This document shows, piece by piece, positions 37-25,642 of a DNA stretch of 26,207 nucleotides. Made by a program: the position numbers and the translations under genes. The notes below the pieces were generated by a model that saw nothing but the letters and a program-made list of their open reading frames with translations, searched no databases and was not told the DNA's origin. This stretch comes from a virus. The stretch is taken from positions 1 through 26,207 of the IMG/VR virus record IMGVR_UViG_3300044630_001365; one strand, given 5' to 3'. Every line of letters begins with the position of its first letter. The first letter of the stretch is position 1.

Positions 37-54
37 AACAAATTACCCATTTGT

Positions 55-2682: not shown

Positions 2683-2685
2683 ATT

Positions 2686-3913: not shown

Positions 3914-3925
3914 AAGGAGATTATT

Positions 3926-4822: not shown

Positions 4823-4851
4823 AACATTTATCACATATATAAAGGGTTATT

Positions 4852-12092: not shown

Positions 12093-12234
12093 GGTTTTTC
12101 TCCACTAGGTTGATTGTTTTTTCTAGGTCTTCTATGTCTCGGATTCTAGCCAGCGGTAGTCCCATTTTTGTCGCTTCTTTTTTCAGAGCCACTAGAAGTG
12201 TTCTTAGTTGTTCTAGGTCGGTTTGTTTTGCCAT
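12079..12234 (-). CDS. 51-aa helical protein overlapping the sigma-like gene
   Basis: An ATG at 12234 opens a 51-codon frame ending with TAA at 12079. The product starts MAKQTDLEQLRTLLVALKKE and continues through GLPLARIRDIEDLEKTINLV, all well-formed amphipathic helix with normal codon use. Its first 89 bases overlap the C-terminal tail of the sigma-like gene in another frame, and its end overlaps the next gene by 14 bases. The tail of the sigma-like frame in the overlap is low-complexity, so this small frame is probably the constrained one. It may be a separate protein or a frameshift extension of the upstream one. Confidence 0.6.
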   Translation of the reverse strand: MAKQTDLEQLRTLLVALKKEATKMGLPLARIRDIEDLEKTINLVEKNRGLR

Positions 12235-13016: not shown

Positions 13017-13019
13017 TGG

Positions 13020-13376
13020 TTACTCCTTCGTTGCTTCAACATAATGCACCTGCTTGTCATCTGTCCATGCCACACCGTTTAAACCGTCCATCAGGGTTTT
13101 AACATAGTTATCTAGGTCACCACGCAACTTAGACTTTGTGCCGTCATATTCTATGACGGTCACTTCTGTGGTGGTGTCGTTAAACAATACACGAATAGCG
13201 ACAGACCCTTCAAATAAGGGTCCGTCCCATGCTTCACGAATGGCGGCTTCAGCGATTAAAGTTTTCTCAGGTGTGAATACACGACCACGCCTACCGAGTC
13301 GTGGTCGTCCCTTGGGTACGGGTCTGCCTTGGATAACAACGGTGTGTTGTGCTGGTTTCTTTTTGCGTGTAGCCAT
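13020..13376 (-). CDS. rusA: RusA-type Holliday junction resolvase
   Basis: 118 aa. The N-terminal GRPVPKGRPRLGRRGRVFTP is the classic RusA opening (basic, P-x-P-K-x-R-P-R). The C-terminal part holds RGDLDNYVKTLMDGLNG followed by VAWTDDKQV, with acidic residues D87, D89 and D106/D107 at the positions of the RusA catalytic aspartates. RusA dimers bind four-way junctions and nick them symmetrically; in phages they resolve recombination or replication intermediates before packaging. Length is normal for the family. Its start overlaps the stop of a 51-aa gene (TAATG). This is one of the safest calls in the window. Confidence 0.85.
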   Translation of the reverse strand: MATRKKKPAQHTVVIQGRPVPKGRPRLGRRGRVFTPEKTLIAEAAIREAWDGPLFEGSVAIRVLFNDTTTEVTVIEYDGTKSKLRGDLDNYVKTLMDGLNGVAWTDDKQVHYVEATKE

Positions 13377-13531
13377 TAGAACGGCTCTTCCGCATCAGGG
13401 TGTGGGTATGTGGGGTCGTCTTTAAGTCGCCACATAAGCAGTTCTTTTGTTAGTTCAGAAACTTCTTGCTCTAGTTTATAAACATAATCTTCCAGAATAC
13501 GCAAACGGTTTTGCATTTCTTCGTTATCCAT
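13376..13531 (-). CDS. 51-aa coiled-coil protein, unknown
   Basis: Starts at ATG 13531 and ends at TAA overlapping the RusA start. The product opens MDNEEMQNRLRILEDYVYKL and continues EQEVSELTKELLMW, then an acidic Pro-rich tail (DDPTYPHPDAEEPF). The first two thirds form a heptad coiled coil. AAGGAGTGTT lies upstream as ribosome binding site. It is fully embedded in the operon between primase and resolvase. Function unknown; a small adaptor or scaffold is possible. Confidence 0.75.
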   Translation of the reverse strand: MDNEEMQNRLRILEDYVYKLEQEVSELTKELLMWRLKDDPTYPHPDAEEPF

Positions 13532-13539
13532 AACACTCC

Positions 13540-14433
13540 TTATGTGTATACTCGTGCCACTAGTTTATCAATTTCTAGTTCGCCGTTAGTCCTGCTGTGG
13601 TATTTACCCCACCGTAAATCAGCGTCTACTAGCACGACTTTGGTTTCTGATGGGTTTAATCCTGCTCGTACACATTCGTGTGCCAACTTGGCTAGGGCAC
13701 GGCTACGGTCACCACCTTCTAATGGTCCGTCACGCCATATAACCTTACCGAGTGGGCTGAGTTTACGCATAGCGTCAGGTAAGGATTCACATTGGGTGTG
13801 GTCGGTGTTAATCATTGTCGGTTTGGGTGGTTCTTTATAAAAGCCAGCGAGTCGTGTAATTGTGTCTGGTGAAACCAGGCTTGCTTCTGCCATGTTAAGA
13901 AACTCGTCAAATGAATACGGTTCTTCCGTGTCTGTGATGACACGCCTGTTGGGGATAGATAAATCCGAACAGTTGGGGTACGGTAGCCGTACATAGTTGC
14001 CGTATTGTTTTGTGCTTGCGAGTGTTTCTTGTTTTGGGTTTACTTCACGGGCAGGGTAGTCAACGACTTGGTGACACGCTAGGAACATTCGCCGCATATC
14101 CCGTGCAAGCACTGGCTCTGTGGCGAACACCCACACATGATAACCTTTAGACCTTGACTTTTCTATAAAGGCATGGACACCAGCAACGGCAAATGCATCT
14201 CGTAAATCTTTCGCTGCTTGCAGGTCACCTGTGTCAATGTCCGTGCATCCCCATACTGTGTACCAGTCACCTTTTATGGGCACCATAGGGTAAACACCGA
14301 TAGGTGTTGTCCCGTCTAGGTGGGATGTGAACACATCCGTGGTTAATGGTTCTTTGACGCACGACCCTTCTTCGGAGCCGTACACATCTCCACGACCACG
14401 GAACAGTTTAATGAACCGTGTTGTATTTTCCAT
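13540..14433 (-). CDS. archaeo-eukaryotic type primase (AEP, TOTE-like)
   Basis: 297 aa from the ATG at 14433; the frame can be opened 12 bases earlier with a TTG, but the ATG lies 2 bases after the helicase stop and is preferred. Motifs of the AEP fold are visible: DID at 65-67 (first metal-binding pair), EKSRSKGYHVWVF at 91-103 (S/R-S-K-G-x-H motif), then NPKQE at 132-136, GNYVRLPYP at 145-153 and a later Asp near 168 (VITDTEE). This combination is typical of the AEP-TOTE branch. The C-terminal part (about 225-297) is helical. It would make primers for phage replication together with the adjacent helicase. It has no helicase domain of its own. Confidence 0.75.
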   Translation of the reverse strand: MENTTRFIKLFRGRGDVYGSEEGSCVKEPLTTDVFTSHLDGTTPIGVYPMVPIKGDWYTVWGCTDIDTGDLQAAKDLRDAFAVAGVHAFIEKSRSKGYHVWVFATEPVLARDMRRMFLACHQVVDYPAREVNPKQETLASTKQYGNYVRLPYPNCSDLSIPNRRVITDTEEPYSFDEFLNMAEASLVSPDTITRLAGFYKEPPKPTMINTDHTQCESLPDAMRKLSPLGKVIWRDGPLEGGDRSRALAKLAHECVRAGLNPSETKVVLVDADLRWGKYHSRTNGELEIDKLVARVYT

Positions 14434-14435
14434 TT

Positions 14436-15509
14436 TTAAATCCAATCATCATCTAGGATACTTAGTTGTTCACCAATTTCATTGGCTACGGTTGGGAACT
14501 CGGACGGGAACTCGCCGTTCTTTAAGCGTGTTAAACGCCCTGTGCCTTGTTCAATTTCAAAGTCAATGTCGTCCAGTAGTTTGGACGCAGGACGCTTACA
14601 TTTTACAAGGTTAACGGTTACTGTGTTTTGGTGGATACGAAGTTCGTACCGTAACGCATCTAATCTCTCTAAAAGTCGCTCGGTGTTTTTAGATGTATCT
14701 AAGCGTTCTTCTATTTCACGAATCTGCGCTTCTATCTCAAACTTCTTTCGGCGTACACCTATAATGTGTGTTGCTTGTTGCTCACCACCATACGCACCTG
14801 ATGAGATAGTCATCTTCTTGCCGTCTGCACCTGCGGTGCGTGACGACTGATGCAGAACTAACAACGGGATGTTATGTCGTTTACCAAACGCTTTAAGAGT
14901 ATTAGCCTTGGACGGTACATCTTCTCCGCCACCATTTAACAATTCCAAATAGTCAAACACTAGCAACGCTGGTTTGCCCCACATGTCACGAATCTCTCCG
15001 AGTGCGTTTTCCATTTCGTTTAATGTCATCATTTGGTCAAAGACAGCAAGGTTCGGGAACGACTGGTTGGCTGTTTCTTTCAACAGTTCAATTGCTTTAT
15101 AGTCGTTGTTCGCAACTTGGTCTTCAAGCATGTCTGCAGGGATACCGTGCATTAAGCAAGTCAACTTGATTAATGTTAATGTGCGTGGTTCGTCTGGGCA
15201 GAAATACACAACAGGTTTATCTGCGTTCGCTACAAGTATTTGTAGTAGGAACATTGTTTTACCTGAGTGCGAGTAGCCGTTAATAAGGCACATCTCTGAT
15301 GGTGCGATGCCACGCATCTCTTCGTCTAGGTCATTAAAGCCTAGGTAGATACGCTCGTTTGGGTGTTGTGCCCAGTGGATAAAGTCATCCGCTGCGTGTG
15401 CGAGTGGATTATAATACTGTCTTGTTTTTATGGCGTTAGACACATCAGGCGTGGGGATTAGTTCCCCACGCCCTAGTGCGTCCCAACGCTCCGCATAATT
15501 CGGAGTCAT
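14436..15509 (-). CDS. DnaB-like replicative helicase, RecA fold
   Basis: 357 aa; AGGGAT lies upstream of the ATG. Walker A is GYSHSGKT at 78-85, a strand-loop (VVYFCPDEP) follows at 100-108, Walker B is LLVFDYLEL at 182-190 (D186), and LLVLHQSSR at 216-224 matches the H3-type 'hQ' motif of DnaB/RecA helicases. The N-terminal primase-binding domain of DnaB is missing; instead there is a short 60-residue lead. The C-terminal 100 residues hold a coiled coil (about 255-290) and an acidic tail (SILDDDWI) that could bind partners. It is transcribed just before the AEP primase, so the two likely form the primosome. KaiC/RadA-type ATPase is the alternative family. Confidence 0.75.
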   Translation of the reverse strand: MTPNYAERWDALGRGELIPTPDVSNAIKTRQYYNPLAHAADDFIHWAQHPNERIYLGFNDLDEEMRGIAPSEMCLINGYSHSGKTMFLLQILVANADKPVVYFCPDEPRTLTLIKLTCLMHGIPADMLEDQVANNDYKAIELLKETANQSFPNLAVFDQMMTLNEMENALGEIRDMWGKPALLVFDYLELLNGGGEDVPSKANTLKAFGKRHNIPLLVLHQSSRTAGADGKKMTISSGAYGGEQQATHIIGVRRKKFEIEAQIREIEERLDTSKNTERLLERLDALRYELRIHQNTVTVNLVKCKRPASKLLDDIDFEIEQGTGRLTRLKNGEFPSEFPTVANEIGEQLSILDDDWI

Positions 15510-15536
15510 TTGTATCCCTACTTGTTGTGACTAGAT

Positions 15537-15989
15537 TTACTTACCTTTTGGTGCCCAAAAAGCATCGTTAGATGATGTGGACTTGAACCAAGGACGCTTC
15601 GGGTTTGACTGAAGACCGTCACGGTTGTCCCACACTTCGGTTACACCCTTCATAGCGCACTGTTCGTTGAGCCATTCAGGAATTGGACCGTGTTGCTTGC
15701 CTTTTACACGGACTGTGAATCCGCTTACTTGCTTCGCTTCGGGGAACGACTGTGTAAACAGTTGCTCATCCGCTGGTGCTGGAGCAGGATTGTGAGCCTG
15801 CTGTGGTGCTGGTGTCGTGGCAGGGGCTGTGACGCTCATACCTTGTGAAGTAAGGATAATGTCGCATACTGCTTCGTATGCTTCATTGAACGCAACAATG
15901 TTAGCATTAACATCGTTGCTCTTGGGTGTTAACTCGCTCGCAATTTTTGCGGCTACTTGCATAATGATGGATTGGTCTTTATTGACCAT
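15537..15989 (-). CDS. 150-aa protein, possible ssDNA-binding or replication accessory
   Basis: The ribosome binding site AAAGGAGA is strong. Residues 1-50 are helical. Residues 52-75 are a Pro/Ala linker (VTAPATTPAPQQAHNPAPAP). The C-terminal 70 residues form a compact basic domain (GFTVRVKGKQHGPIPEWLNE, then VWDNRDGLQSNPKRPWFKS) rich in aromatic and Lys residues. The gene lies between nuclease and helicase genes and overlaps the former by 11 bases. A role in binding single-stranded DNA or loading the helicase is plausible from position and charge, but I recognise no OB-fold signature. Treat the function as unknown. Confidence 0.65.
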   Translation of the reverse strand: MVNKDQSIIMQVAAKIASELTPKSNDVNANIVAFNEAYEAVCDIILTSQGMSVTAPATTPAPQQAHNPAPAPADEQLFTQSFPEAKQVSGFTVRVKGKQHGPIPEWLNEQCAMKGVTEVWDNRDGLQSNPKRPWFKSTSSNDAFWAPKGK

Positions 15990-16878
15990 TTGTACTCTCC
16001 TTTGTTGAGTAGTTGGTTGACACTGTATCAGATACTGGTTCTGTCAATGTCACTGGAGTTTCCTGTAAGGGCAAGGACAGTCCATTCGGGCTGACAAATG
16101 CGCCTTTACACATACTCCAATAGTCGCACCACTTTTCGCTACATAGCGCACTGGTGTCGTTCATAAGCCAGTTTCTGTCCGTGCCCATAACAAGGGCAGT
16201 TTGGATAACTGGTTTCACATTATGAATAAGCCATTGTTGGTGTTCTTCGGTACGGCGAAGAATACCGATTTGGGCTTTAGGTTTTTCTTGGCGTACCATA
16301 ACGCCATAACGGAACTCGGCAGGGTATTTAGTCATCAAACGGTCAACGGCAGCAGCACAATAAACTGTAGCCTGAATAGATTGCGATTGTTTTTCCTTCA
16401 TATAATAAGGACGGGACGCTGTTTTCCAGTCCCACACAACACCGTTCGGGTCAATGTAGTCCATAGTTCCTTCACACCATACGGCGTACTCGCCAACGGT
16501 TATACCAAGTGGGAAACTAAAACGCATCTCAACCTGACCACCGAAGGTAACTTCAGGCATAATATGCGTTTTGAACGCTTCACACATACCGCCTATCTGG
16601 GCGACAGATTTATCAGGGTCAAGGTTAGTGACTTTATAAGGCTGTTCACGCAAATGTTCCCAATGGTCAAGGACAGTCTGCAACATCTCATCGGGGTTTC
16701 CACCGCCAAGGATAGTCTCAATTCCAAAGTGAATTGCTGTTCCCATAATGGTCGCATCGCTCGGACCTGATAGTTCAGGTTTCGCTAGTTTGAAGCGTGC
16801 CCTTTCAGGACAGATAATGCTGTCGTTCAGCCACGATTGGCGCAAATATATAACGCCAGAGTGATGGTCTATTCTCAT
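15979..16878 (-). CDS. Cas4/RecB-family exonuclease with Fe-S cysteines
   Basis: 299 aa, GGAG 8 bases before the ATG. The PD-(D/E)XK motifs of the RecB/Cas4 branch are in order: GTAIHFGIE (H50), CEGTMDYIDPNG (D140), VVWDWKTA (D150, K152) and QATVY (Q169, Y173). Four cysteines (C23 near the start in IICPERARF, then C246, C251 and C257 in the segment CSEKWCDYWSMCKG) match the split Fe-S cluster of Cas4 and AddB nucleases. It probably degrades DNA ends for recombination or repair in replication. The tail after residue 265 is Thr/Ser-rich and looks disordered. No CRISPR array or other cas gene is nearby, so this is a phage recombination nuclease rather than a Cas protein. Confidence 0.8.
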   Translation of the reverse strand: MRIDHHSGVIYLRQSWLNDSIICPERARFKLAKPELSGPSDATIMGTAIHFGIETILGGGNPDEMLQTVLDHWEHLREQPYKVTNLDPDKSVAQIGGMCEAFKTHIMPEVTFGGQVEMRFSFPLGITVGEYAVWCEGTMDYIDPNGVVWDWKTASRPYYMKEKQSQSIQATVYCAAAVDRLMTKYPAEFRYGVMVRQEKPKAQIGILRRTEEHQQWLIHNVKPVIQTALVMGTDRNWLMNDTSALCSEKWCDYWSMCKGAFVSPNGLSLPLQETPVTLTEPVSDTVSTNYSTKESTNGQ

Positions 16879-17587: not shown

Positions 17588-17758
17588 CCTTGTCCAAGGG
17601 ACACCATAACCTTTCAACTCGCACAACTCACGCCCCATCCACATATCGTGTACGCCGTTCCTAGTTATAGGAACAATGTTATGTGGTATGACAACATCAC
17701 ATAAACACGACAAGTCGTGTTCGGCAACACCGCATCCTAGTTCATTTTCAATGTCCAT
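17000..17758 (-). CDS. protein with two helix-turn-helix segments, probable DNA-binding regulator
   Basis: 252 aa; the start overlaps the upstream stop (TGATG). The N-terminal half (1-140) is acidic and helical with several Cys (C9, C18, C20) and is not recognised. Residues about 149-190 hold a typical HTH (ERIAELDELF, then NYRELARQLGLTVAMVNGIR). Residues about 215-247 hold a second HTH-like unit (LTSREIVDIVHKEFG, then NPTVVNKVRERHRKKL). It could be a transcription regulator of the leftward operons or a DNA-organising protein. It stands next to the repeat cluster at 16.0-17.6 kb, which makes those repeats its candidate sites; this link is inference. Confidence 0.6.
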   Translation of the reverse strand: MDIENELGCGVAEHDLSCLCDVVIPHNIVPITRNGVHDMWMGRELCELKGYGVPWTRQTILDYLVDLETFYDAYHYSKHSLQGESLLEMEPIELDDNDSPFVQWGKVREVVQYAMDKFNDSLVEIMNYHELEPQFLMDSLTTGKAGDGWTQERIAELDELFMGDNLNYRELARQLGLTVAMVNGIRKYWSERRERLKGGDKPAQKMLHQLAKETELTSREIVDIVHKEFGKEYNPTVVNKVRERHRKKLAGA

Positions 17759-17994
17759 CAGTCGTATCCTATCTCTTCAATGAGTTCTTCATAATCGGCT
17801 AAACACCACTCTAATGCTTCAATAATGAAACTGAAAACAGTTTCATATTCATATTCCATAGCGCATTGACCACCGTATTTAGAGACATTGTGGTAACGAG
17901 TTACCACCCATCCCTTGTGTGCGTTGGCGTACTGCACTTCATAGTAGCCGTCAATGTCGGGCGCATCAACGGTTATCAATTTTATTGATTCCAT
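17758..17994 (-). CDS. 78-aa acidic protein, unknown
   Basis: AGGAGAAAG precedes the ATG. The N-terminal half is beta-like (YYEVQYANAHKGWVVTRYHN); the C-terminal half is acidic helix (IIEALEWCLADYEELIEEIG). There is no motif I recognise. It ends in a TGATG overlap with the HTH gene and is likely co-translated with it. Its coding DNA carries two of the strong inverted repeats (17825-17846 and 17890-17907). The strong net negative charge is reminiscent of phage DNA mimics or inhibitors, but nothing specific supports such a role. Confidence 0.65.
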   Translation of the reverse strand: MESIKLITVDAPDIDGYYEVQYANAHKGWVVTRYHNVSKYGGQCAMEYEYETVFSFIIEALEWCLADYEELIEEIGYD

Positions 17995-18003
17995 AACTTT
18001 CTC

Positions 18004-18306
18004 CTAAATATCATCCAAATAGTTATCTTCAACACCTGTCACTTTAGTGACGGCATCGCTAATAAATTCCCAACCGTAAATGTCGGCAACAGCATCAATG
18101 CTGTAATCCCACTCCCTAGTTGCCATAACCGCATCCAACAGTTCACCTGTTGGTTCCACCAACCTAGACTCTAGTACGGTTACAATGTCTTCGGCGGACC
18201 AAACAACCCCCTTGAAACCGAACTTATACATAAGTTGTCTTATAACCCGATACGCTGTATCGGGACATTCCATTGATTCAATATATTGAATTGATTCAGT
18301 GTCCAT
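18004..18306 (-). CDS. 100-aa protein, paralogue of the gene at 18608-18868
   Basis: The start is taken at 18306, where ATG overlaps the upstream stop (TAATG) and GGGAG lies upstream; a start five codons earlier is possible. The protein shares a pattern with the product of 18608-18868: KFGFKGVVWSAEDIVTVLES against KFGWKGVMFTRDYVRQAVIE, and LLDAVMATREW against KVDAVMSGRMW. The two therefore appear to be a duplicated small family within the window. No catalytic motif is seen. The coding sequence contains a perfect 16-base palindrome (18276-18291) and an 8-bp hairpin (18246-18264). Confidence 0.7.
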   Translation of the reverse strand: MDTESIQYIESMECPDTAYRVIRQLMYKFGFKGVVWSAEDIVTVLESRLVEPTGELLDAVMATREWDYSIDAVADIYGWEFISDAVTKVTGVEDNYLDDI

Positions 18307-18605
18307 TATTCTTTCTCCCATTCTGGATTATTTAGAATCTCCAACGCTTGAAGATACTCTTCATCAGTTTCCTTCGTCCACTTGCCTTGTTCCATATCAA
18401 ACGCAGGACCTTCGGTGAATCTATCCACCAAAATTCTATCGTCAATATATTTAGTTTGAGTGGATAAATCTACCGCCACTACGAAGTAGATTTTCTTACC
18501 TGTTTGCATTGCCGATAGGCAAGCACCGCACACGGTTTCGTCAAACTCGTAATCGGCTAGGTCGTAACCGCATTGGTCACAATAGCGTTTATCTTCTGTT
18601 TCCAT
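18306..18605 (-). CDS. zinc-ribbon protein, unknown
   Basis: 99 aa. Cysteines C9, C12, C26 and C29 in YCDQCGYDL and VCGACL form a classic four-Cys zinc ribbon. The rest has a beta strand (KKIYFVVAVDLSTQTKYIDD) and an acidic helical tail. AAAAGGA is the ribosome binding site. It lies between the two related small genes and is coupled to the downstream one. Zinc ribbons of this size in phage early regions usually bind nucleic acid or a host protein; the target is not known. Confidence 0.7.
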   Translation of the reverse strand: METEDKRYCDQCGYDLADYEFDETVCGACLSAMQTGKKIYFVVAVDLSTQTKYIDDRILVDRFTEGPAFDMEQGKWTKETDEEYLQALEILNNPEWEKE

Positions 18606-18607
18606 TG

Positions 18608-18868
18608 TTATTTATCCTTTTCTGTTTCTACAATTGCATCATAGATGCATCCCATACCTTCAGTAGCAATGGCTTCTTCAAGGTCTTTCACCCACATACG
18701 ACCAGACATAACAGCGTCCACCTTGTCGTCAAGGCTTTCCGACCATCCATAATGCTCAATGACGGCTTGCCGTACATAATCACGGGTGAACATTACACCC
18801 TTCCATCCAAACTTGTGGGCGAAGTCCCACATAAGTTTCAACGCTTGGTCTTCAGTATAATTTTCCAT
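18608..18868 (-). CDS. 86-aa protein, paralogue of the gene at 18004-18306
   Basis: MENYTEDQALKLMWDFAHKF, then GWKGVMFTRDYVRQAVIEHY and KVDAVMSGRMWVKDLEEAI. The spacing of KFG(F/W)KGV and the (L/V)DAVM motif matches the protein of 18004-18306 end to end. AAAGGAAAA is the ribosome binding site. Both are acidic, helical and early-located. Duplicated small genes flanking a zinc-ribbon gene suggest tandem duplication followed by divergence. Function unknown. Confidence 0.7.
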   Translation of the reverse strand: MENYTEDQALKLMWDFAHKFGWKGVMFTRDYVRQAVIEHYGWSESLDDKVDAVMSGRMWVKDLEEAIATEGMGCIYDAIVETEKDK

Positions 18869-18870
18869 TG

Positions 18871-19062
18871 TTATTTTCCTTTCAGTTCCATAACGGTAAT
18901 ACCTTTACCGATATGGTTATTACACGACGGCGGAGCCGTCATTTTTACGAATATCTCAACGGTGTTTTTACACCGTGGACATACCCAAATGCCTGCTTTA
19001 TACAACTGAACGGGGGGCTTACGCCCCCCGTTGTTTGTTGTTTCTTTCACGGCACTTGCCAT
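18871..19062 (-). CDS. zinc-finger mini-protein (C-x2-C / C-x2-H)
   Basis: 63 aa. GIWVCPRCKNTVEIFVK followed by PPSCNNHIGK gives C28, C31, C47 and H50, a compact metal-binding fold. Proteins of this 'W-x-C-x-x-C ... P-x-C-x-x-H' kind occur in actinophages as unknown short proteins. The start overlaps the upstream stop (TAATG). The codons for NNGGRKPPVQ contain a perfect 10-bp inverted repeat, which is more likely to be selected at the nucleic-acid level than by the protein. Confidence 0.7.
   Translation of the reverse strand: MASAVKETTNNGGRKPPVQLYKAGIWVCPRCKNTVEIFVKMTAPPSCNNHIGKGITVMELKGK
19009..19032. repeat. 10-bp perfect inverted repeat, loop of 4
   Basis: Arms AACGGGGGGC and GCCCCCCGTT flank the loop TTAC. 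It is the most G+C-rich hairpin of the early region and lies inside a coding sequence. It has no following T-run on the - strand, so an intrinsic terminator for the leftward transcript is unlikely. Confidence 0.9.
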
Positions 19063-19703
19063 TATAACATCTCCTTCATCTGTAGGCAGAAGCGTGTAAT
19101 TTCCTGCATCTCATCTGCGTTCAATTCGTCAATGCCTTCGGCATTATCTTCGGCAAATGTAGCAACATCATCCAACATACCCTTTAGGGTAGCAATGGCG
19201 TTGTTATACCGTTCTGATGAACGGTCACCATTTACGGAGCAGTCGTACATTGCGAAAGTGGCACGGTCAAGTGTGTCAACATCACAGATGTTGTGTTGAA
19301 TGGCGAAGTCGCAAATAGTAGCCATACTAACCGCAAGGTTATAAGCACTAGCCGTTCCTTCGGTCAAACCTGAGACTAATACTTCGTATACTTCTTCGGG
19401 AATGTCGTAGTTTTCTCCGTCATACTCGCCGTTCTGTGCTAAGCCCCACACAACTACGCAGTTACCGTGAATCTCACGCTTGAAGAGATTAGTGGCGAGA
19501 TAATTCATCTCCATACCGTTGATGAGAAACTCATCATTGACATAGCCAACGAACAACATTTCTTCCATACCACAATTTGTGGTAACACAGTCAAAGTGAC
19601 CACCTACGGCAGACTGAATGGATTTATGGTCTTCTACGAAGATAGGTTCGGGTTCAACATTGACCCCGCTAGGTAGGAATAATCCTACGGTAATTGATGA
19701 CAT
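19062..19703 (-). CDS. DUF3846-like protein
   Basis: 213 aa. The first 90 residues follow the DUF3846 pattern seen in actinobacteria and their phages: a strand plus 'EDHKSIQSAVGGHFDCV', then YVNDEFLINGMEMNYLATNL and VVVWGLAQNG. The remaining 120 residues are acidic helix (for example LDDVATFAEDNAEGIDELNA) and are not recognised. The high acidic charge resembles antirestriction DNA mimics that often sit near DUF3846 genes, but that is speculative. The leader contains a hairpin (AACCT-GAA-AGGTT in mRNA sense) that includes the ribosome binding site GAAAGG and, just upstream, the box shared with three other genes. Confidence 0.6.
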   Translation of the reverse strand: MSSITVGLFLPSGVNVEPEPIFVEDHKSIQSAVGGHFDCVTTNCGMEEMLFVGYVNDEFLINGMEMNYLATNLFKREIHGNCVVVWGLAQNGEYDGENYDIPEEVYEVLVSGLTEGTASAYNLAVSMATICDFAIQHNICDVDTLDRATFAMYDCSVNGDRSSERYNNAIATLKGMLDDVATFAEDNAEGIDELNADEMQEITRFCLQMKEML

Positions 19704-19847
19704 TATATAACCTTTCAGGTTAGTAGGGATTTATTGGAGCCGTTGACTCCGTGACACATAGCGAGCATCTGCGGTGTCCACTATGTATCACGCAACCAAC
19801 GGGAATTGGTTGGTGCAGACTATTGTCTGCAGTTAGTTTATCGGTTG
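19704..19847 (-). promoter_or_regulatory. structured leader upstream of the DUF3846-like gene
   Basis: 144 non-coding bases made almost entirely of inverted repeats. TGCAGAC/GTCTGCA is at 19814-19831 (loop TATT). CAACCAA/TTGGTTG is at 19793-19812. A long arm pair at 19751-19761 and 19781-19791 matches at 10 of 11 positions with a 19-base loop. A small hairpin at 19708-19722 contains the ribosome binding site. The box TAGTAGGGAT is at 19721-19730. Such a compact series looks like a structured 5' leader RNA. No known riboswitch class is recognised. Confidence 0.6.
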
Positions 19848-20105
19848 TTATCTCCGTTTCCACCATAGAGAACAGATAGTTCTAACAATGTCGCTGTCCT
19901 TTATTTGGATGTAAATCCAATAATTTATCAACACGAAAGCGTAGAACACTAGCAATGTTATCGTTAGCATAACGATAATCATTAGCAGATTCACGGTCAT
20001 AATCTGGTCATTCTCCCACTGTCCCCTAAGCGTTAGGAGCAGGGACAGCAGGAAACACCAACTGAATAGGGCTATGCCCCATTCCCATAGTTTGTCCGTG
20101 TTCAT
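19848..20105 (-). CDS. two-span membrane protein, holin candidate
   Basis: 85 aa with two hydrophobic segments: about residues 7-26 (WEWGIALFSWCFLLSLLLTL) and about 36-66 (a run of Met, Ile, Leu, Val through YAFVLINYWIY). They are joined by a short polar loop (RGQWENDQ), and the C-terminus ends in WWKRR. Size, two spans and charged tail are within the range of phage holins, and no holin is seen next to the lysin. However, it lies in the early-type leftward operon, so superinfection exclusion or another membrane role is equally possible. Its ribosome binding site is in the 3' arm of a 9-bp hairpin at 20112-20135. Confidence 0.65.
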   Translation of the reverse strand: MNTDKLWEWGIALFSWCFLLSLLLTLRGQWENDQIMTVNLLMIIVMLTITLLVFYAFVLINYWIYIQIKDSDIVRTICSLWWKRR

Positions 20106-20107
20106 AA

Positions 20108-20350
20108 TTAGTTACCTTTCAATTCTGAAAGGTAATCACGATTCATCTCCAACGGCATACCCAATTGACTAGTTAGATAAACTAGTCGGTCCTTGTCGCT
20201 AGGCAATTCCATAAGGTCCTGAATCTGTTGAAACTCCCAATGGGATACATCCCATACGAAGTCAACATTACCCATCATACTAGGGCTAAAAGCCCATAGC
20301 CCCGATGCTTTATGAAAACCAACATAAGTTGGTGAAGTTTGAATGGTCAT
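20108..20350 (-). CDS. 80-aa protein, unknown
   Basis: Start taken at ATG 20350 (TGATG overlap with the upstream gene, GGGGG upstream). The product has a beta-like N-terminus (SPTYVGFHKASGLWAFSPSM) with several Trp and a helical C-terminal part. No family is recognised. Its DNA includes the hairpins at 20112-20135, 20167-20187 and 20240-20255. Confidence 0.65.
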   Translation of the reverse strand: MTIQTSPTYVGFHKASGLWAFSPSMMGNVDFVWDVSHWEFQQIQDLMELPSDKDRLVYLTSQLGMPLEMNRDYLSELKGN

Positions 20351-20610
20351 CACTTGTCCCCCTTCAGGGCTAATTGTGCCTGATTATAGGCACGGTGTAG
20401 GTTTTCGTATGCAGTGTCCAAATGGTACAACTCATCATTGAGTTGGTCAATACGATGTTCGTATCTATGAACTGCATTATGTAATTGAGCCTTTAGGTCA
20501 ATTACTTCCTGATGTTTTTCGTCAACTTGTTTCTGCAACTGTGTTGCAGTAATCTGCAAGTTGCGAATGTTACGGCGTAGCCGTTTCACAATGGGTAATT
20601 TGCTAAACAT
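20350..20610 (-). CDS. 86-aa coiled-coil protein, unknown
   Basis: After a basic N-terminus (PIVKRLRRNIRN) the whole protein is a heptad coiled coil (LQITATQLQKQVDEKHQEVI, then LNDELYHLDTAYENLHRAYN). The start codon lies inside a perfect 18-base palindrome (20604-20621), with GAAAGG just upstream on the mRNA. The basic head and coiled coil would suit a small scaffold or DNA-bridging protein; nothing more specific can be said. Confidence 0.7.
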   Translation of the reverse strand: MFSKLPIVKRLRRNIRNLQITATQLQKQVDEKHQEVIDLKAQLHNAVHRYEHRIDQLNDELYHLDTAYENLHRAYNQAQLALKGDK

Positions 20611-20632
20611 TATAATGTTTACCTTTCTTTAG

Positions 20633-20752
20633 TCAGTCTTCTTCGCAGAATTTTCCATCTTCACAGATGGAACATTGAATGTCTGTCTCTAGCAGAGACA
20701 CTCTTCCACACCAAACGCATAACAACTTCTGTTGTTCATCGTCAATAAACAT
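20633..20752 (-). CDS. 39-aa zinc-ribbon mini-protein
   Basis: Found by translating the gap between two larger genes. ATG at 20752 (ribosome binding site AAAGGA) opens MFIDDEQQKLLCVWCGRVSL; the product ends with two further Cys (CSICEDG, KFCEED) before TGA. CVWC and CSIC give a four-Cys metal site. Length and acidity resemble other tiny zinc ribbons in this region. The start codon is enclosed in the hairpin ATAAAC/GTTTAT. The strong ribosome site and exact fit in the gap support it as a real gene. Confidence 0.75.
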   Translation of the reverse strand: MFIDDEQQKLLCVWCGRVSLLETDIQCSICEDGKFCEED

Positions 20753-20766
20753 TGTTTATCCTTTCT

Positions 20767-21642
20767 TTATAATTCGGATGGAATAAGTTCCATCCCCTTG
20801 AGAGTTTGCATAACCCAACCCATAGGGTCACGAACGATGTCACCGCTACCGTCCTGAAGTTTCTCTACGATTACATCGTATTCATCCAACATTGGCAACC
20901 CCATTTTATGGGGTCTACCATAGCCACTACCCATAGTGGCGTGCTGTTCGTATGCTGTTGCGCTCTGTTCCTGAACAGAGAATGTTAGTCGGCGCAACAT
21001 TGAAGGATGAGCCAAAGCGAACATAACGGAGTTTATGTCCAAAGTATCTGCCGAGTCGTGCAGTTTCACTGCCGTACTATAGGCGTGTTCTCCGTCACCC
21101 GCTATCGTTGAATCCCACCACAACTCAACACCAAAGCCGAGTTTATTGATGGTATCAATAAGCGACAACACCGCAATGCCACGCTTCATAAGCCATTCGG
21201 CTTGAATATAAGAACTTGCAGTTCCTGCAACGACAACCTTTATAACTCTGCCGATAGACTTATCGGCACTAGCGGAAAAGTTCACCATACATTCAGGGTC
21301 ACCTTCCACGAAACGCCCCATATCCACATAAGCACCACCAAAGTCGTAGGTCGGCTTATAAAGTTCCGATAATTTATCGGCAAGTCGTTCGGTAACATCC
21401 GTAAGGATGTTATCAACCTTAGGACGCAACTCGGTCCAACCTTCGGTTGCTAACTCGCAAGTAGCCTTGAGTGTTCTGGCGTGTGGTCCGTGCCAATCTT
21501 CTTCAAACTTCTTATCCGAAGACCCTGTCTTCGGATTAGTTTGGGCAAACTTTATGAACTCACCTAGTGAGTCAAACAACTCACAATGCAGTTTCTTACC
21601 CTTAGGCATAGCCTTGTTGCCGTATTCGTTGATGATTCTCAT
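20767..21642 (-). CDS. partner of the MoxR/CobS-like ATPase; degenerate von Willebrand A-like protein
   Basis: 291 aa from ATG 21642, chosen because GGAG lies just upstream in a hairpin loop; the frame is open further up to 21705 but that part has no ribosome site. Residues about 1-95 (SLGEFIKFAQTN, DWHGPHARTLKATCELATEG) are helical. A central stretch at about 130-185 (RVIKVVVAGTASSYIQAEWL, then IAVLSLIDTINKLGFGVELW) has the alternation of a von Willebrand A core, with AGTASS where the metal-binding D-x-S-x-S would be. The Asp is lost, so metal binding is doubtful. MoxR-family ATPases usually pair with such proteins, and the ATPase gene is directly upstream. The assignment is structural inference. 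Confidence 0.5.
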   Translation of the reverse strand: MRIINEYGNKAMPKGKKLHCELFDSLGEFIKFAQTNPKTGSSDKKFEEDWHGPHARTLKATCELATEGWTELRPKVDNILTDVTERLADKLSELYKPTYDFGGAYVDMGRFVEGDPECMVNFSASADKSIGRVIKVVVAGTASSYIQAEWLMKRGIAVLSLIDTINKLGFGVELWWDSTIAGDGEHAYSTAVKLHDSADTLDINSVMFALAHPSMLRRLTFSVQEQSATAYEQHATMGSGYGRPHKMGLPMLDEYDVIVEKLQDGSGDIVRDPMGWVMQTLKGMELIPSEL

Positions 21643-21669
21643 TTGAAACTCCGTTTCAATAGTAGGGAT
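21643..21669 (-). promoter_or_regulatory. hairpin leader with ribosome site in loop, plus shared box
   Basis: In mRNA sense the stem TTGAAAC/GTTTCAA encloses GGA of the ribosome binding site GGAG. TAGTAGGGAT (+ sense) follows at 21660-21669. The same arrangement occurs before the genes starting at 23005 and 23320, and a variant before 19703. Confidence 0.7.
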
Positions 21670-21683
21670 AATTGGGGTAATGA

Positions 21684-21705
21684 GTGTGGCACTAAAGTGC
21701 CACAC
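21684..21705. repeat. 10-bp inverted repeat over the stop of the ATPase gene
   Basis: GTGTGGCACT and AGTGCCACAC are separated by AA, and the stop codon of the leftward ATPase gene lies at the centre. There is no T-run afterwards, so it is not a standard terminator. It may act as a 3' stabilising hairpin or processing site between the ATPase and its partner gene. Confidence 0.85.
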
Positions 21706-23005
21706 CCATCATAACCTTGTCGGCAACTTCAGGCTTCGCACCCTTGAGAATTGTTGTATCAACAATTTCCTTGAGAGTGTAAGCGTCACCCTTGAGAAGT
21801 TTGGCACCGTTGACAGTGGCTCGTGGTGAAACCACGACACGCAAACCATAATTCTCAACATTCTTTCGTGCCATACGGACGATGTTGAGCCACTTAGCCG
21901 ACACCGTTGGCTCTAAGCCAACCGCATTTAGCATTGCTTCTTCAATACCGTTATCGTAACCGATAACGACACTAGCGAAACGGTCAAGGAAAGCCGCATC
22001 CAAAGGATTACGACCCACATACTCGGCAGTAGCACCGTGACCGAAGGTATTCGCCGTAGCAACAAGGACGAAGTCCTTGTGACGCTTCACCATTCCATCA
22101 GGGAAAGCCATAAAGGTATTCGCTAAAGCGGAGTTCAACACCGTCAACACATTGGCGTTACCGTTATCTACTTCATCAAGTAGATAAACACCGCCAAACT
22201 CAAACGCTGTTCGGAACCCTGTTCCGACATACTGCCCCGTAGCCGACATATAACCCAACAGAGAAGACTCTGTTGCTTGACTAGAGCACGACTTGCTATA
22301 AAAGTCAAGCCCTAAGGCTTGAGAAGCATTTTCGGCAATGGTTGACTTGCCTGTGCCTGCAGGACCAACCAAATAGGTTGGGACACGGCATTGAAGATTC
22401 AACAACACCTTGTTGAAGTTATAATGTTGGACTCCGTCCAACTTGCGAACTTCACCAGACGGAAGTTTCACTTCCGTAACTTTCGGTTGCATAGTTGCAA
22501 TAACATCCTTCAAGGATGTTACTTCTTCAACAACACCATTGAAAATGGTTAGATAACCTTCCATCGCACCGTTTACGGTGTTGGCAATCTCATCCTTAGG
22601 TAACTCAGGGACGAAGTCCCCGATAACCGCTTCAACAATGGCACGAAGTGCCCCGTCAAGCCCACCTTCGGTGGTTCGTGGCTGTGTAGGCATTGGAGCC
22701 TTCTCTTTCTCCACCTTCGGTGGTTCTGGTTGTGGTGTTGGACGAGAACCAACTTCAATAACGGTTACACCGTTACTAAGCAGCAATTCTTTCTGCTTTT
22801 CGTAGAAAGCCTGCAGTTCGTTGTCCTTGCGGTGCATTGGGGAACCCTGAAAGGTTACCCCCATAGCCTTGAGAGTTTGAATACGGTCTACCTTCGCTAA
22901 GAAGGTAAATCTGTCGGTTCGGTCACGATTCCAACCATAAGGTTGGACAGTAACACGGTCTGTCTCTAAGTTGATACTTAGAATGGTGGATGCTTTATGA
23001 GCCAT
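21692..23005 (-). CDS. MoxR/CobS-like AAA+ ATPase
   Basis: 437 aa from ATG 23005 (ribosome site GGAG in a hairpin loop); the frame is open 20 codons further up but without support. Residues 1-80 are a small N-terminal domain, and residues about 88-112 a Pro/Lys linker. The AAA+ core starts near 200. Walker A is GPAGTGKS (214-221), Walker B is VYLLDEVD (273-280), sensor 1 is VATANT (315-320) and the arginine finger region is FLDRF (R342). This is the MoxR/CobS branch, which uses ATP to remodel a partner, often with a von Willebrand A protein. CobS-like genes are known from several phage groups with unclear purpose. The partner candidate follows immediately. Confidence 0.75.
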   Translation of the reverse strand: MAHKASTILSINLETDRVTVQPYGWNRDRTDRFTFLAKVDRIQTLKAMGVTFQGSPMHRKDNELQAFYEKQKELLLSNGVTVIEVGSRPTPQPEPPKVEKEKAPMPTQPRTTEGGLDGALRAIVEAVIGDFVPELPKDEIANTVNGAMEGYLTIFNGVVEEVTSLKDVIATMQPKVTEVKLPSGEVRKLDGVQHYNFNKVLLNLQCRVPTYLVGPAGTGKSTIAENASQALGLDFYSKSCSSQATESSLLGYMSATGQYVGTGFRTAFEFGGVYLLDEVDNGNANVLTVLNSALANTFMAFPDGMVKRHKDFVLVATANTFGHGATAEYVGRNPLDAAFLDRFASVVIGYDNGIEEAMLNAVGLEPTVSAKWLNIVRMARKNVENYGLRVVVSPRATVNGAKLLKGDAYTLKEIVDTTILKGAKPEVADKVMMGVAL

Positions 23006-23098
23006 TATGAAACTCCGTTTCACTAGTAGGGAATAGGTGACTCCCACCGTGAGCATAATGCCCACGGTGGGAAACTAGAAACAACACTCTTTAGAGTG
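23006..23098 (-). promoter_or_regulatory. intergenic region with two strong hairpins and shared box
   Basis: From upstream to downstream on the mRNA there is an 8-bp stem AACACTCT/AGAGTGTT (23083-23100), then a 10-bp stem (23042-23051 with 23063-23072) whose loop itself contains GCAT-A-ATGC. The box TAGTAGGGA follows at 23024-23032, then the ribosome-site hairpin TGAAAC/GTTTCA (23008-23022). It probably controls or insulates expression of the ATPase gene. No known element is recognised. Confidence 0.6.
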
Positions 23099-23320
23099 TT
23101 ATAACGCCAAATTAGGGTCATAAGCGACCCATTCAACAGAAACGAATTCTTCGTTTATGTACTTATACGCAAGGCAACCAACAACGCCGTGGATAGGATG
23201 TGTGTATTCCACACACTCTTCGGCGTGATGAACTCCGTTATCATCCGTGAAAGATGCGTACCACTCTTCGGTTGCATAGCAACCACGGGGGGCAGAATCA
23301 AAAATAGGTGATGGGGACAT
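23099..23320 (-). CDS. 73-aa protein, unknown; first gene of the leftward early operon
   Basis: MSPSPIFDSAPRGCYATEEW, then YASFTDDNGVHHAEECVEYT and LAYKYINEEFVSVEWVAY. It appears beta-rich and acidic, with Cys14, Cys36 and Cys49 and a His pair (H31-H32). No family is recognised. It is the gene nearest the strong leftward promoter, so it is likely the earliest and most highly expressed. First genes in phage early operons often encode host-takeover or antidefence factors, but nothing in the sequence shows which. GGAG in the loop of a 7-bp hairpin serves as ribosome binding site. Confidence 0.65.
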   Translation of the reverse strand: MSPSPIFDSAPRGCYATEEWYASFTDDNGVHHAEECVEYTHPIHGVVGCLAYKYINEEFVSVEWVAYDPNLAL

Positions 23321-23345
23321 TATGAACTCCGTTCATAGTAGGGAT
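23321..23345 (-). promoter_or_regulatory. ribosome-site hairpin and shared box before the first early gene
   Basis: In mRNA sense TATGAAC/GTTCATA encloses GGA of GGAG, and TAGTAGGGAT (+ sense) covers 23336-23345. It has the same layout as the leaders before 21642 and 23005. Confidence 0.7.
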
Positions 23346-23416
23346 TATGGATAAGGCAAGGACAAGCCAAGCCCCTAACTACCGTTAGGTAGTAGTACAC
23401 GGAAAGGGAATTGCAC

Positions 23417-23473
23417 CCCACACGGACAATGTCCGTGCTACTAAGTCCGTGTGGGACGGTATAAATACCGTCC
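23417..23473 (-). promoter_or_regulatory. mutually exclusive hairpins in the early leader
   Basis: CACGGAC (23421) can pair with GTCCGTG at 23431 (7 bp, loop AAT) or, as part of an 11-bp arm starting at 23417, with the second copy of GTCCGTG extended to 23455. The two pairings exclude each other. A separate 9-bp hairpin GGACGGTAT/ATACCGTCC at 23454-23473 competes with the last bases of the long arm. This is the layout of attenuators and switching leaders. Confidence 0.5.
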
Positions 23474-23760
23474 ACAATAAGTCACATTACGATAACACCC
23501 CGTAGGGGACAGAAACACCTTATCTGTCTAATCCTACGGATTATCGCCGTGTCTCCTGCCCTAAGCAACTACTTTATACCGCAATAACCATAGGTTATTC
23601 TAGGCGAGTTCTATCGCTGGCACCACTCGGCATAATGCAGAGTGTGACACTAGGTACGCTAACGAAGGAAACATCCCGTGACCCCGTTAGTCGTGCCGTA
23701 CCTTTATCGCCCTAATCGGGAGTACGGCTCTAATCGGCGGTACCGACTAGGTTGCCAATC

Positions 23761-23789
23761 ACAATAAGCCCTAGATTTTCACTTGTCAA
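23761..23789 (-). promoter_or_regulatory. leftward sigma70-like early promoter
   Basis: On the - strand a perfect -35 TTGACA (23789-23784) is followed after exactly 17 bases by TATTGT (23766-23761, four of six matches to TATAAT). Transcription would begin near 23753 and run into the early operon, giving a leader of about 430 bases before the first start codon at 23320. It is the best promoter match I found by eye. Confidence 0.65.
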
Positions 23790-24101
23790 GGGGTAATTAT
23801 TCTTCACCCACCGCAAACCCTTGCAAAATAAGGAAAAAAAAATTTGGAAAAAATTCCGAAAGTCGTATACACACACCCCTAGGTATACGGTTTCACCGTC
23901 ACCCAAACACGCCGAAACCCCGTGCATAATGCACACGGTTTCTCGTGTCACAGGAAAAACACACATAGGCACACACACCGCACGACACGGGTCATCACGC
24001 CCGTATGCGCCCGCATTGGGGGGTTTATAGTCACAATAACCATAATCATTTAGGGTATAAAGCACCATAATCCATTGGCTATCGGCATCCTAGCCACACA
24101 C

Positions 24102-24130
24102 GGGCAGGGGGGCACGGGGGGGTACGGGGG
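24102..24130 (+). other. G-quadruplex motif
   Basis: Four G-runs of 3, 6, 7 and 5 bases are separated by CA, CAC and TAC, which meets the usual intramolecular G-quadruplex rule with short loops. It lies in non-coding DNA next to the point where strand composition changes. More G-runs follow at about 24178-24197. Confidence 0.75.
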
Positions 24131-24201
24131 TGCGAGTGCTAAAGTAGTATTTATCGTATAGCCGATGCGTTGTATTTTGGGGTTTGGGCATAGGGGGCAT
24201 G

Positions 24202-24234
24202 AAAAAACCCCCATGGGGGTGGGGGTCTTTTTTT
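24202..24234. terminator. bidirectional intrinsic terminator
   Basis: The 14-base palindrome ACCCCCATGGGGGT (24207-24220) is followed on the + strand by a second G5 run and TCTTTTTTT, and on the - strand directly by a T run (the A6 at 24202-24207). The leftward gene ending at 24274 is 40 bases away, so the main use is probably to end that three-gene unit and to block read-through in both directions. Confidence 0.75.
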
Positions 24235-24273
24235 AAGTACCGTATGAGCCTTGCTATATAAGGGTTTGATACC

Positions 24274-24567
24274 TTACCATTTGACTTTGTTTGCCCAGTA
24301 TGCGGCTGACATTGGTCCTTTGGCTATGTTTTTGGCGTGGCGTGTTTGGAAGCGGTTGCGGCGGCTGGCGTAGGCTGCTGATTCGCCTTTCTTTTTGGGT
24401 GACCCTTTTACGCCTTGTTGTCCGAAGCGGATGGTTTTTACCATGCCGCCTGATTTGGCTACTACGATGTGGGATTTGGTTGGGTGGGTTGGTGTGGCTT
24501 TGGGTTTGTTGTAGCCGCTTACTCCTGCTCGTGCTAGTCGTGGGTCGGTTGCTTTTCGTGGTGCCAT
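24274..24567 (-). CDS. conserved basic phage protein (MSAAYWANKVKW C-terminus), unknown
   Basis: 97 aa, strongly basic. The N-terminus (APRKATDPRLARAG) is disordered; the middle is SHIVVAKSGGMVKTIRFGQQ (32-51). The end carries RHxxNIxxG (76-84) and MSAAYWANKVKW (86-97). I have a recollection of small basic proteins with this ending in environmental and marine phages, with no known function. The charge suggests binding of DNA or virion components. It is the last gene before a bidirectional terminator. The codon use differs from the early zone (T/G-rich + strand), so it belongs to a different compositional segment. Confidence 0.75.
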   Translation of the reverse strand: MAPRKATDPRLARAGVSGYNKPKATPTHPTKSHIVVAKSGGMVKTIRFGQQGVKGSPKKKGESAAYASRRNRFQTRHAKNIAKGPMSAAYWANKVKW

Positions 24568-24582
24568 TATTTTGTCCCTGCT

Positions 24583-24879
24583 TTACTGTACGCCATTGTT
24601 TATTACTTCTATTTTCATAATCCAAGCCATGGGGATGTGGTTGATGTCGCCTACGGTTTTTACTGTACCATCTTCAGGTTGAAAGATTGTCCCTGCGATT
24701 GTCAGATAGTGTTCTTGACAGTTATGCCATATCCGTCCTAATGTGACGGCTATGGCATCTTCAGGTTCGTAGTCGTCTACTTCGTGCCATCCTGAATGGG
24801 GTGCATAGGCATCTCGCCATGTGACTCGGACTTCTGTCCAGTCTGCCAGGTTTCGGATTTGGGATTCAATGTATTCCAT
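24583..24879 (-). CDS. 98-aa protein, unknown
   Basis: MEYIESQIRNLADWTEVRVT, then WRDAYAPHSGWHEVDDYEP and IPMAWIMKIEVI. The 'W-x-DA-x-x-x-x-GW' segment and the beta-like ending resemble a small family common in phages that contains no known catalytic motif. It is transcribed between a membrane peptide and the basic 97-aa protein. Function unknown. Confidence 0.7.
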   Translation of the reverse strand: MEYIESQIRNLADWTEVRVTWRDAYAPHSGWHEVDDYEPEDAIAVTLGRIWHNCQEHYLTIAGTIFQPEDGTVKTVGDINHIPMAWIMKIEVINNGVQ

Positions 24880-24910
24880 ACTATTGGTCTAGGGGTTCTA
24901 GGATTATGGT

Positions 24911-25030
24911 CTAATCAAATGATTCAGTTTGAAAATTCTTCACCTGCTGATACACGAAAGCAACGACAACAGCAACACTCAAAACGGTACCACTCGCCAG
25001 TCCGACTATAATCTTAAATGCTAGTTTCAC
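24911..25030 (-). CDS. 39-aa single-span membrane peptide, possible holin or spanin part
   Basis: A frame from GTG at 25030 to TAG at 24911 encodes VKLAFKIIVGLASGTVLSVA, then VVVAFVYQQVKNFQTESFD. It has a basic N-end, a clean transmembrane span of about 22 residues and a polar C-end. No ATG is in frame and the ribosome site is weak; an ATG 12 bases upstream is in another frame. It could thus start at GTG or represent a frameshifted gene. The hydrophobic pattern is unlikely to arise by chance in non-coding DNA. As the first gene of the small leftward unit it is a possible lysis or membrane-modifying peptide. Confidence 0.5.
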   Translation of the reverse strand: MKLAFKIIVGLASGTVLSVAVVVAFVYQQVKNFQTESFD

Positions 25031-25060
25031 TCTTGTTGTCCATGCCTAACTGTTACTGTC

Positions 25061-25138
25061 GTGCTGCCTGCCTACGGGCAGCACATTAGCCATACTATAT
25101 ACTATAGTCGGTTTACCGTCACTTGCGTTATGGTAAAC
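25061..25138. promoter_or_regulatory. divergent control region with three inverted repeats
   Basis: Between the leftward unit and the rightward late genes lie GTGCTGCC/GGCAGCAC (25061-25084), an ACTATA/TATAGT repeat around 25093-25107 that contains -10-like hexamers on both strands, and GGTTTACC/GGTAAACC near 25110-25138. This is a plausible operator and divergent promoter region, but no -35 stands out. Confidence 0.4.
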
Positions 25139-25166
25139 CTACAGGTTTCCTTACCCCCCCTATAAT
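25138..25166 (+). promoter_or_regulatory. rightward promoter candidate, TATAAT between C7 runs
   Basis: A perfect -10 (TATAAT, 25161-25166) is flanked by seven C on each side. At 17 bases upstream is CCTACA, a 3 of 6 match to TTGACA. Transcription would start about 25173 and lead to the small terminase-like gene at 25217. The C-runs are unusual and may help an activator or alter DNA structure. Confidence 0.45.
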
Positions 25167-25216
25167 CCCCCCCACTGTTCTAAACCTTTAGTCTAGGGAA
25201 CAACCACCACAATTGC

Positions 25217-25642
25217 ATGGACATCCTAGACGAACGACAAGAAAAATACCTGAACTGGCTGCTGGTGCCAACAGGGCACCGCACACCTAAAACCCAAGAC
25301 GCATACGCCAAAGAAGAAAACATAGATGTCACCACCCTAAGACGCTGGCAGAAAAAACCACACTTCAAAGCCGAATGGCAAAAACGAGTAGAAGAACTAC
25401 AAGGGTCCCCAGAACGAACCCAAAAACTACTAGATGAAATCTATCAGCGTGCGCTCGGCGGCGATAATAAAGCCGCCCAATTGTATCTTCAGGCTACTAA
25501 CCGTTTGGCTCCCCAACAGGTGAACATTACTCATACTCAGTCTTTGGCTGAGATTTCAGATAAGGACTTAGAAGACCTTATTGCTAGTGTGGCTTCTGCT
25601 GAGAAGTCTGCTAGGTTGGAAAGCCGTGAGTCAAACTCCTGA
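25217..25642 (+). CDS. terminase small subunit-like protein
   Basis: 141 aa. RQEKYLNWLLVPTGHRTPKT followed by DAYAKEENIDVTTLRRWQKK makes an HTH of the phage terminase small subunit kind (recognition helix about 37-46). A helical body follows (ERTQKLLDEIYQRALGGDNK, AAQLYLQATNRLAP), the usual TerS second part. TerS binds the packaging site and feeds DNA to the large subunit, which should lie to the right outside the window. Codon use changes near residue 77 from CTA/CTG Leu and CGA/CGC/AGA Arg to TTG/CTT Leu and CGT Arg, hinting at a recombinant gene. The ribosome binding site (AGGGAA) is distant. Confidence 0.7.
   Translation: MDILDERQEKYLNWLLVPTGHRTPKTQDAYAKEENIDVTTLRRWQKKPHFKAEWQKRVEELQGSPERTQKLLDEIYQRALGGDNKAAQLYLQATNRLAPQQVNITHTQSLAEISDKDLEDLIASVASAEKSARLESRESNS

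Follow-up and report, generated by a model that had tools for sequence, protein, structure and literature searches.

A train of short perfect hairpins opens the early arm in a family of uncultured podophages and may shape their first mRNA

In CsrA/RsmE sites, a short stem over the ribosome-binding site carries a GGA in its loop, and the early region of the podophage N4 carries promoter hairpins for its virion RNA polymerase, which are short and perfect and have three-base loops. In positive-strand RNA viruses such as HCV, selected RNA structure is pervasive and runs through coding regions (GORS; PMC7566573). Cluster K mycobacteriophages carry a repeated Shine-Dalgarno-bearing element (SAS/ESAS) just before the starts of non-structural genes; the SAS is one fixed 13-bp sequence, GGGATAGGAGCCC, and the authors doubt RNA pairing of the associated inverted repeats (PMC3203893). 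GGAG within the Shine-Dalgarno sequences of early genes is cut by the T4 nuclease RegB, which requires no partner as long as the GGA is unpaired (PMC3014915). Lastly, template switching is a process that creates and maintains hairpins (PMC8794818).

The window analysed here is a whole virus record of 26,207 bases, part of a podophage-like genome with the virion arm on the plus strand and the early/replication arm on the minus strand. A putative early promoter of the sigma-70 type, matching the consensus as TTGACA-N17-TATTGT, lies at 23761–23789 on the minus strand. It is followed on the same strand by a first early ORF of 73 aa without a family (23099–23320), an AAA ATPase gene (AAA_5/MoxR-like, phrog_249; 21692–23065), a gene for a DUF7192 protein (phrog_1909; 20767–21705) and a gene for a DUF3846 protein (19062–19703). 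All lie within the hairpin train (17700–23600, minus strand), of which the AAA and DUF7192 genes are genes 2 and 3. The replication module (12146–16878, minus strand) lies outside the train, with a hairpin density of about background; by sequence it encodes a PD-(D/E)XK exonuclease, a DnaB-like helicase, an AEP-TOTE primase and a RusA-like protein, and the window proteins scanned, a subset of the ORFs, included no recognised DNA polymerase. On the virion arm, the largest protein (1758 aa; 5631–10907, plus strand) had no PHROGs or Pfam match.

Within 23700–17600, we counted 116 non-overlapping perfect hairpins with stems of at least 5 bp, and about 25% of the train bases sit in stems. An earlier note on this DNA had claimed 26 perfect repeats (stem of at least 8 bp, loop of 0–6 bases) for 17825–23599; our recount gave 29, and its numbers and coordinates were essentially right. 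The 10-bp stems that it placed at 19009, 21514, 21684 and 22164 are exact, and those at 20112 and 22501 also reach 10 bp. Over 17700–23600, perfect stems of at least 7, 8, 9 and 10 bp numbered 60, 30, 10 and 6, far above the dinucleotide-shuffle means of 2.6, 0.55, 0.17 and 0.0 and the maxima of 7, 4, 1 and 0 reached in 60 shuffles. The random rate of about 0.1 per kb quoted for the 8-bp class was correct. In the virion half (1–11000), counts of 8, 1, 1 and 0 versus 5.3, 1.5, 0.5 and 0.1 in shuffles were at shuffle level, in line with the remark that hairpins there are isolated cases.

Protein sequence does not explain the excess, as the earlier note had argued. When codons were permuted among synonymous positions inside each gene (200 trials), the 48 stems of at least 7 bp and 24 of at least 8 bp found in the zone genes dropped to 3.9 and 1.06, the highest values of all trials being 10 and 5. 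The same permutation of the virion genes revealed no excess (7 and 1 observed versus 5.8 and 1.65). The hairpins were also confirmed to fall in every reading frame and in non-coding DNA: stems start 20, 27 and 30 times at the three codon positions, and those of at least 6 bp occur at 14.8 per kb in coding and 21.9 per kb in non-coding DNA. RNA folding z-scores were −1.8 to −3.8 on either strand in kb 18–23 of the window, and weaker elsewhere.

The stems measure 5–10 bp, the loops mostly 2–5 bases (3 and 4 being the most frequent), and hairpin centres are mostly 30–60 nt apart. Pooling the first 1.3 kb of 11 genomes, we found 126 centre-to-centre distances of 30–60 nt versus 86 expected; distances below 30 nt were avoided (27 versus 58 expected, pooled over 11 genomes). 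There was no strict periodicity of the hairpins, merely this preference for spacing. The longest stem-free stretch in the window zone is 145 nt, versus a mean of 762 nt in shuffles. No sequence is shared by the stems or by the loops, which leaves the suggestion of recognition sites for a protein, in the sense of sequence-specific binding, unsupported for the train as a whole. Most loops are other than GGA (GAA, GTA, TTTA, TTCG and many more), and a comparison with Rfam yielded no match above the gathering score.

Using the AAA gene as a marker, we found 41 contigs. About 30 fall in the family (38–95% identity), most of them with the train, and ten distant ones lack it; the relatives are uncultured podophage metagenomic contigs. 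The train always occupies the first 3–6 kb of the early arm (in relatives of 36–39 kb, some with end repeats), and the replication module and virion arm of the relatives are free of it. Summed over eight genomes and measured from the AAA start, the density of hairpins is close to nil between −2000 and −1200, climbs from about −1000, peaks between −400 and 0 and then decays over 5 kb. In the window, L003, G002 and G012, the first hairpins follow 150–200 nt after a TTGACA-N17/18-TATTGT-like promoter; most other relatives yielded no recognisable promoter of this kind. The promoter scan alone was not above chance, and it is this recurrence in relatives that argues for the site at 23761–23789.

Among 80 contigs picked by another widespread small gene alone, only two carried the train, both of them family members. 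It was absent from the distant relative MW202803; the nearest phage records are uncultured or distant, and no carrier host was found among the bacterial genomes searched. Two relatives, G003 (L006) and G005 (L009), have no train, and they have nearly the same early genes and much of the gene order in common, with AAA proteins 53–57% and helicases 83–84% identical to those of the window. Both retain some ribosome-binding-site hairpins, and no missing partner gene was found in their gene content. Since these two relatives do without it, the train is dispensable.

In relatives, the stems turned out to be conserved and to covary, so that neither of the outcomes named in the earlier note as refuting it, a density at shuffle level or stems lacking conservation and covariation, was seen. 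Between close pairs, divergence at fourfold sites was 0.118 in stems versus 0.255 elsewhere, and we counted 28 Watson-Crick double changes where about 3 were expected, together with 160 single stem changes; covariation was counted in detail in one gene, and the genome pairs are not fully independent. Over the whole zone, stems differ by 6.4% and other sites by 11.5% between the window and L003. Paired changes could be followed through the protein sequence: LTVLNS with ACT..AGT corresponds to LGVLNS with GGA..TCC, and HKDFVLV with GAC..GTC to HKNFVLV with AAC..GTT. The hairpins of relatives substitute aligned codons rather than being inserted. At 50–60% protein identity, 149 AAA hairpin positions were shared versus 45 in shifted controls, and positions coincided well above these controls even below 50% identity. 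Past roughly 60% protein identity, relatives maintain the density mostly with other hairpins. As judged from these alignments, the stems are under purifying and compensatory selection.

Several of the first early genes have their ribosome-binding site in a hairpin loop (e.g., attcaacTGGAGgttgaatATG), with stems that vary among relatives. On the minus strand of the window, TATGAAC-GGA-GTTCATA (23321–23337) directly precedes the ATG of the 73-aa gene, TGAAAC-GGA-GTTTCA (23008–23022) stands before an in-frame ATG of the AAA gene, and TTGAAAC-GGA-GTTTCAA (21643–21659) directly precedes an in-frame ATG of the DUF7192 gene; a further hairpin, TAACCT-GAA-AGGTTA (19708–19722), lies before the DUF3846 gene. 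Typical forms are attcaac-TGGAG-gttgaat-ATG and ttgaaac-GGA-gtttcaa-ATG. Of the hairpins with a Shine-Dalgarno-like loop in the pooled zones, 61 of 103 have an ATG within 12 nt. At the site before the AAA gene, the stem changes across genomes and the loop register shifts (TGGAG, GGA, AGG, GGAGGATAA), and the hairpin is kept in most; no clear hairpin was found there in L017, L018, L020 and L075. By a crude count, in which the gene starts of relatives were derived from ORFs without curated annotation, the ribosome-binding site is in a loop at 54 of 181 candidate starts of train-bearing early zones. The same holds for 11 of 54 starts in the replication module of train-bearing genomes, so this arrangement is not confined to the zone. 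Exact searches of viral collections with two of the ribosome-binding-site hairpins returned mostly this podophage family.

We also noticed a motif, CCCTACTA (TAGTAGGG on the plus strand), of which the minus strand has five copies versus 0.5 expected (23336–23343, 23024–23031, 21660–21667, 19721–19728 and 11650–11657). Four of the five immediately precede hairpins at early gene starts, and the motif may be a promoter, operator or translation element.

Like GORS, the train is a pervasive selected structure that runs through coding regions. It differs in that it belongs to a dsDNA phage and takes up only the first 3–6 kb of the early arm, whereas GORS is genome-wide, and in that its hairpins are short and local, internal G-U pairs being rare and ribosome-binding sites being placed in loops, whereas GORS is a large-scale folding of genomic RNA. 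The likeness to the SAS lies in a Shine-Dalgarno-bearing element at early gene starts, and the SAS, as GGG-ATAGGAG-CCC, could itself pair. In contrast to the SAS, the stems of the train differ among genes and genomes by compensatory change, and the hairpins continue through the genes. The promoter hairpins of N4 are few, whereas the train has more than 100, mostly in genes and without a consensus sequence; moreover, the excess in N4 was mild and limited to the first 2 kb, with no comparable zone, and we rejected an N4-type phenomenon. No description of such a hairpin train was found in the open-access literature searched. The most conservative filing would be as an extreme variant of selected mRNA structure. 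Taken together, however, its extent, its confinement to the early unit and the display in loops match no described system that we found.

The reading that we favour builds on what could be established at the level of sequence, namely, the density of the hairpins, their start shortly after the putative promoter, the decay over about 5 kb, the conservation in the family, the purifying selection and compensatory changes in stems and the ribosome-binding sites in loops. The immediate-early transcript of the family would be selected to fold locally, during its synthesis, into one short, perfectly paired stem-loop after another, some of them presenting in their loops the ribosome-binding sites of several of the first genes. 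The stems would leave the first phage mRNA, which is unprotected, with few long stretches lacking structure, such as Rho, single-strand ribonucleases, R-loop formation and RNA-guided defences need, and the start sites would stay accessible. We give a probability of roughly 0.5 to this proposal that the immediate-early mRNA is a string of short perfect hairpins displaying ribosome-binding sites and limiting unstructured RNA. Among the causes offered in the earlier note, a folded early mRNA was the best supported, given the confinement to the start of the early unit, the ribosome-binding sites in loops and the covariation of the stems; its benefit is what we infer. Shielding from a host process that requires single-stranded RNA would be the likeliest benefit but is a tentative and rather doubtful part of the proposal. 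The position of the train would fit a shield, since replication and virion genes lack it, and any shield would be partial because about 75% of the bases lie outside stems. That the early operon, as a hairpin array, gives the first mRNA a layer of general physical defence or of traffic control is a reading to which we give slightly less than even odds.

Selection probably acts at the RNA level, through the sense RNA rather than single-stranded DNA. We favour sense RNA because of the ribosome-binding sites in loops, the position after the promoter and an asymmetry of loops on the sense strand, where UNNG occurs 38 times and CNNA 6 times (p=6e-6). A possibility was that the hairpins act instead as single-stranded DNA, in the non-template strand or in both strands (in a transcription bubble, R-loop or replication intermediate), for example by excluding single-strand binding proteins or nucleases. 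The stems are indeed strictly Watson-Crick, G-T being treated as a mismatch: 7-bp stems exceeded shuffles 40-fold when perfect, 2.3-fold with one internal G-U and 1.9-fold with another mismatch. The G-U tolerance of the RNA phage MS2 (7.6-, 6.9- and 2.3-fold, respectively, from small numbers) is thus absent in the train. However, E. coli hairpins before T-runs (250 kb; small numbers) showed equal strictness, and since such terminator hairpins act as RNA, G-U strictness does not discriminate between RNA and DNA; G-U avoidance was therefore dropped as proof of a DNA-only origin. The loops, too, suit single-stranded DNA: on either strand there is an excess of GNA/TNC triloops and of TTTA/TAAA loops, amounting to about 8-fold for GNA triloops closed by a C-G pair and about 10-fold for two-base TTTA loops, and the complements of both are likewise enriched. 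Triloops and two-base loops of these kinds fit the rules of DNA hairpins. GNRA tetraloops were not enriched (0.63-fold), folding z-scores were alike on both strands, and computed loop energies favoured neither strand beyond the null. Against this, the sense-strand asymmetry and the ribosome-binding sites in loops call for RNA, or for the sense strand at the least, and we know of no single-stranded state restricted to the first 5 kb of an early region. We regard single-stranded DNA as unlikely, albeit the likeliest of the alternatives to sense RNA, and a DNA-level component may contribute.

For the ribosome-binding-site subset of hairpins, and for it solely, a reader of GGA or GGAG loops would be a rival to the folded mRNA, the hairpins being targets of a CsrA/RsmE-like repressor or a RegB-like nuclease and the coding hairpins accessory elements or decoys. 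TGGAG and GGA loops precede early starts family-wide, some are kept in the train-less G003, GGA triloops are 3.8-fold enriched, and the placing of GGA in a short-stem loop over the ribosome-binding site recalls CsrA/RsmE sites. Yet, the loops of the train are C-UGGAG-G or C-GGA-G, not ANGGAN, and the majority of the hairpins have other loops without GGA. The likeness to T4 RegB sites, an early-gene GGAG presented as a defined element, is likewise limited, since strong RegB sites share the consensus GGAGRAYARAA and structure protects them from cleavage (PMC3014915). No match to the CsrA or RegB families was obtained among the window proteins scanned, a subset of the ORFs of a genome fragment. 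Such a reader appears still less likely than action as single-stranded DNA.

Template-switch (quasipalindrome) copying, which the earlier note had listed as a cause, would make and repair perfect stems, so that replication or transcription of the early region would have produced the train largely by mutation. The train does share perfect reverse-complement stems and multi-base compensatory changes with template-switch hairpins, which were described as a mutation mechanism on RNA genes, whereas the train has more than 100 stems in one region under purifying selection (PMC8794818). Coordinated multi-base changes were seen between L024 and L026 (TCAAGTC..GACTTGA versus TCTTGTC..GACAAGC), and a serine codon switch from AGT to TCC matches the other arm. 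On the other hand, the 160 single changes far outnumber the 28 double ones and stem fourfold sites change half as fast as others, which argues for selection and not correction alone. In addition, template switching leaves the ribosome-binding sites in loops unexplained, and the train-less G003 and G005 have the same replication genes. It may thus supply some of the multi-base changes and help to create stems, but as the explanation of the train it is improbable.

A view of the hairpins as separate small elements, each a terminator, promoter hairpin or mobile palindrome in its own right, is hardly credible: short palindromic elements and N4 promoter hairpins do exist in phages and bacteria, but terminator-like sites were at about shuffle level in the part scanned (23000–25300, with one alone at a train hairpin and the remaining zone viewed by eye), the sequences are diverse, hairpins replace aligned codons in relatives, and N4 has no comparable zone.

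If true, a folded early mRNA would mean that a structural code lies over about 5 kb of protein code, for which there is no described counterpart. Several kb of the genome of a dsDNA phage would then carry a second layer of information, which compensatory evolution has preserved, which is linked to the genes transcribed first and which some relatives have and others lack despite sharing those genes. Train-bearing and train-less phages make the survival of early viral mRNA in a hostile cell testable, G003 and G005 being natural controls. The many independent perfect hairpins, with their natural variants, are also material for studying selection on mRNA structure, and they provide a layout, found in nature, for presenting ribosome-binding sites in loops.

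Just upstream of the early promoter, the window encodes a small basic protein (phrog_7595; 24274–24567, minus strand). This locus (L047:14338–14610 in a relative) codes for one of two proteins, phrog_7595 or DUF6321, and no examined locus had the two together. DUF6321 replaces phrog_7595 in relatives with weak hairpins: both long-standing DUF6321 clades are weak and all seven phrog_7595 clades are strong (p=0.03, with clades grouped by eye and L015 and L028 as recent exceptions). We rejected the phrog_7595 protein as a partner of the train, as 78 of 80 other contigs carrying phrog_7595 have no train, and the association more likely reflects linkage. Apparent recent swaps between the two proteins were seen in the sister genomes L014/L015 and L029/L028. 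Finally, a contig without an AAA match (L078) has two genes beside the early promoter in common with the window (73 and 87% identical) and displays a weak hairpin excess.
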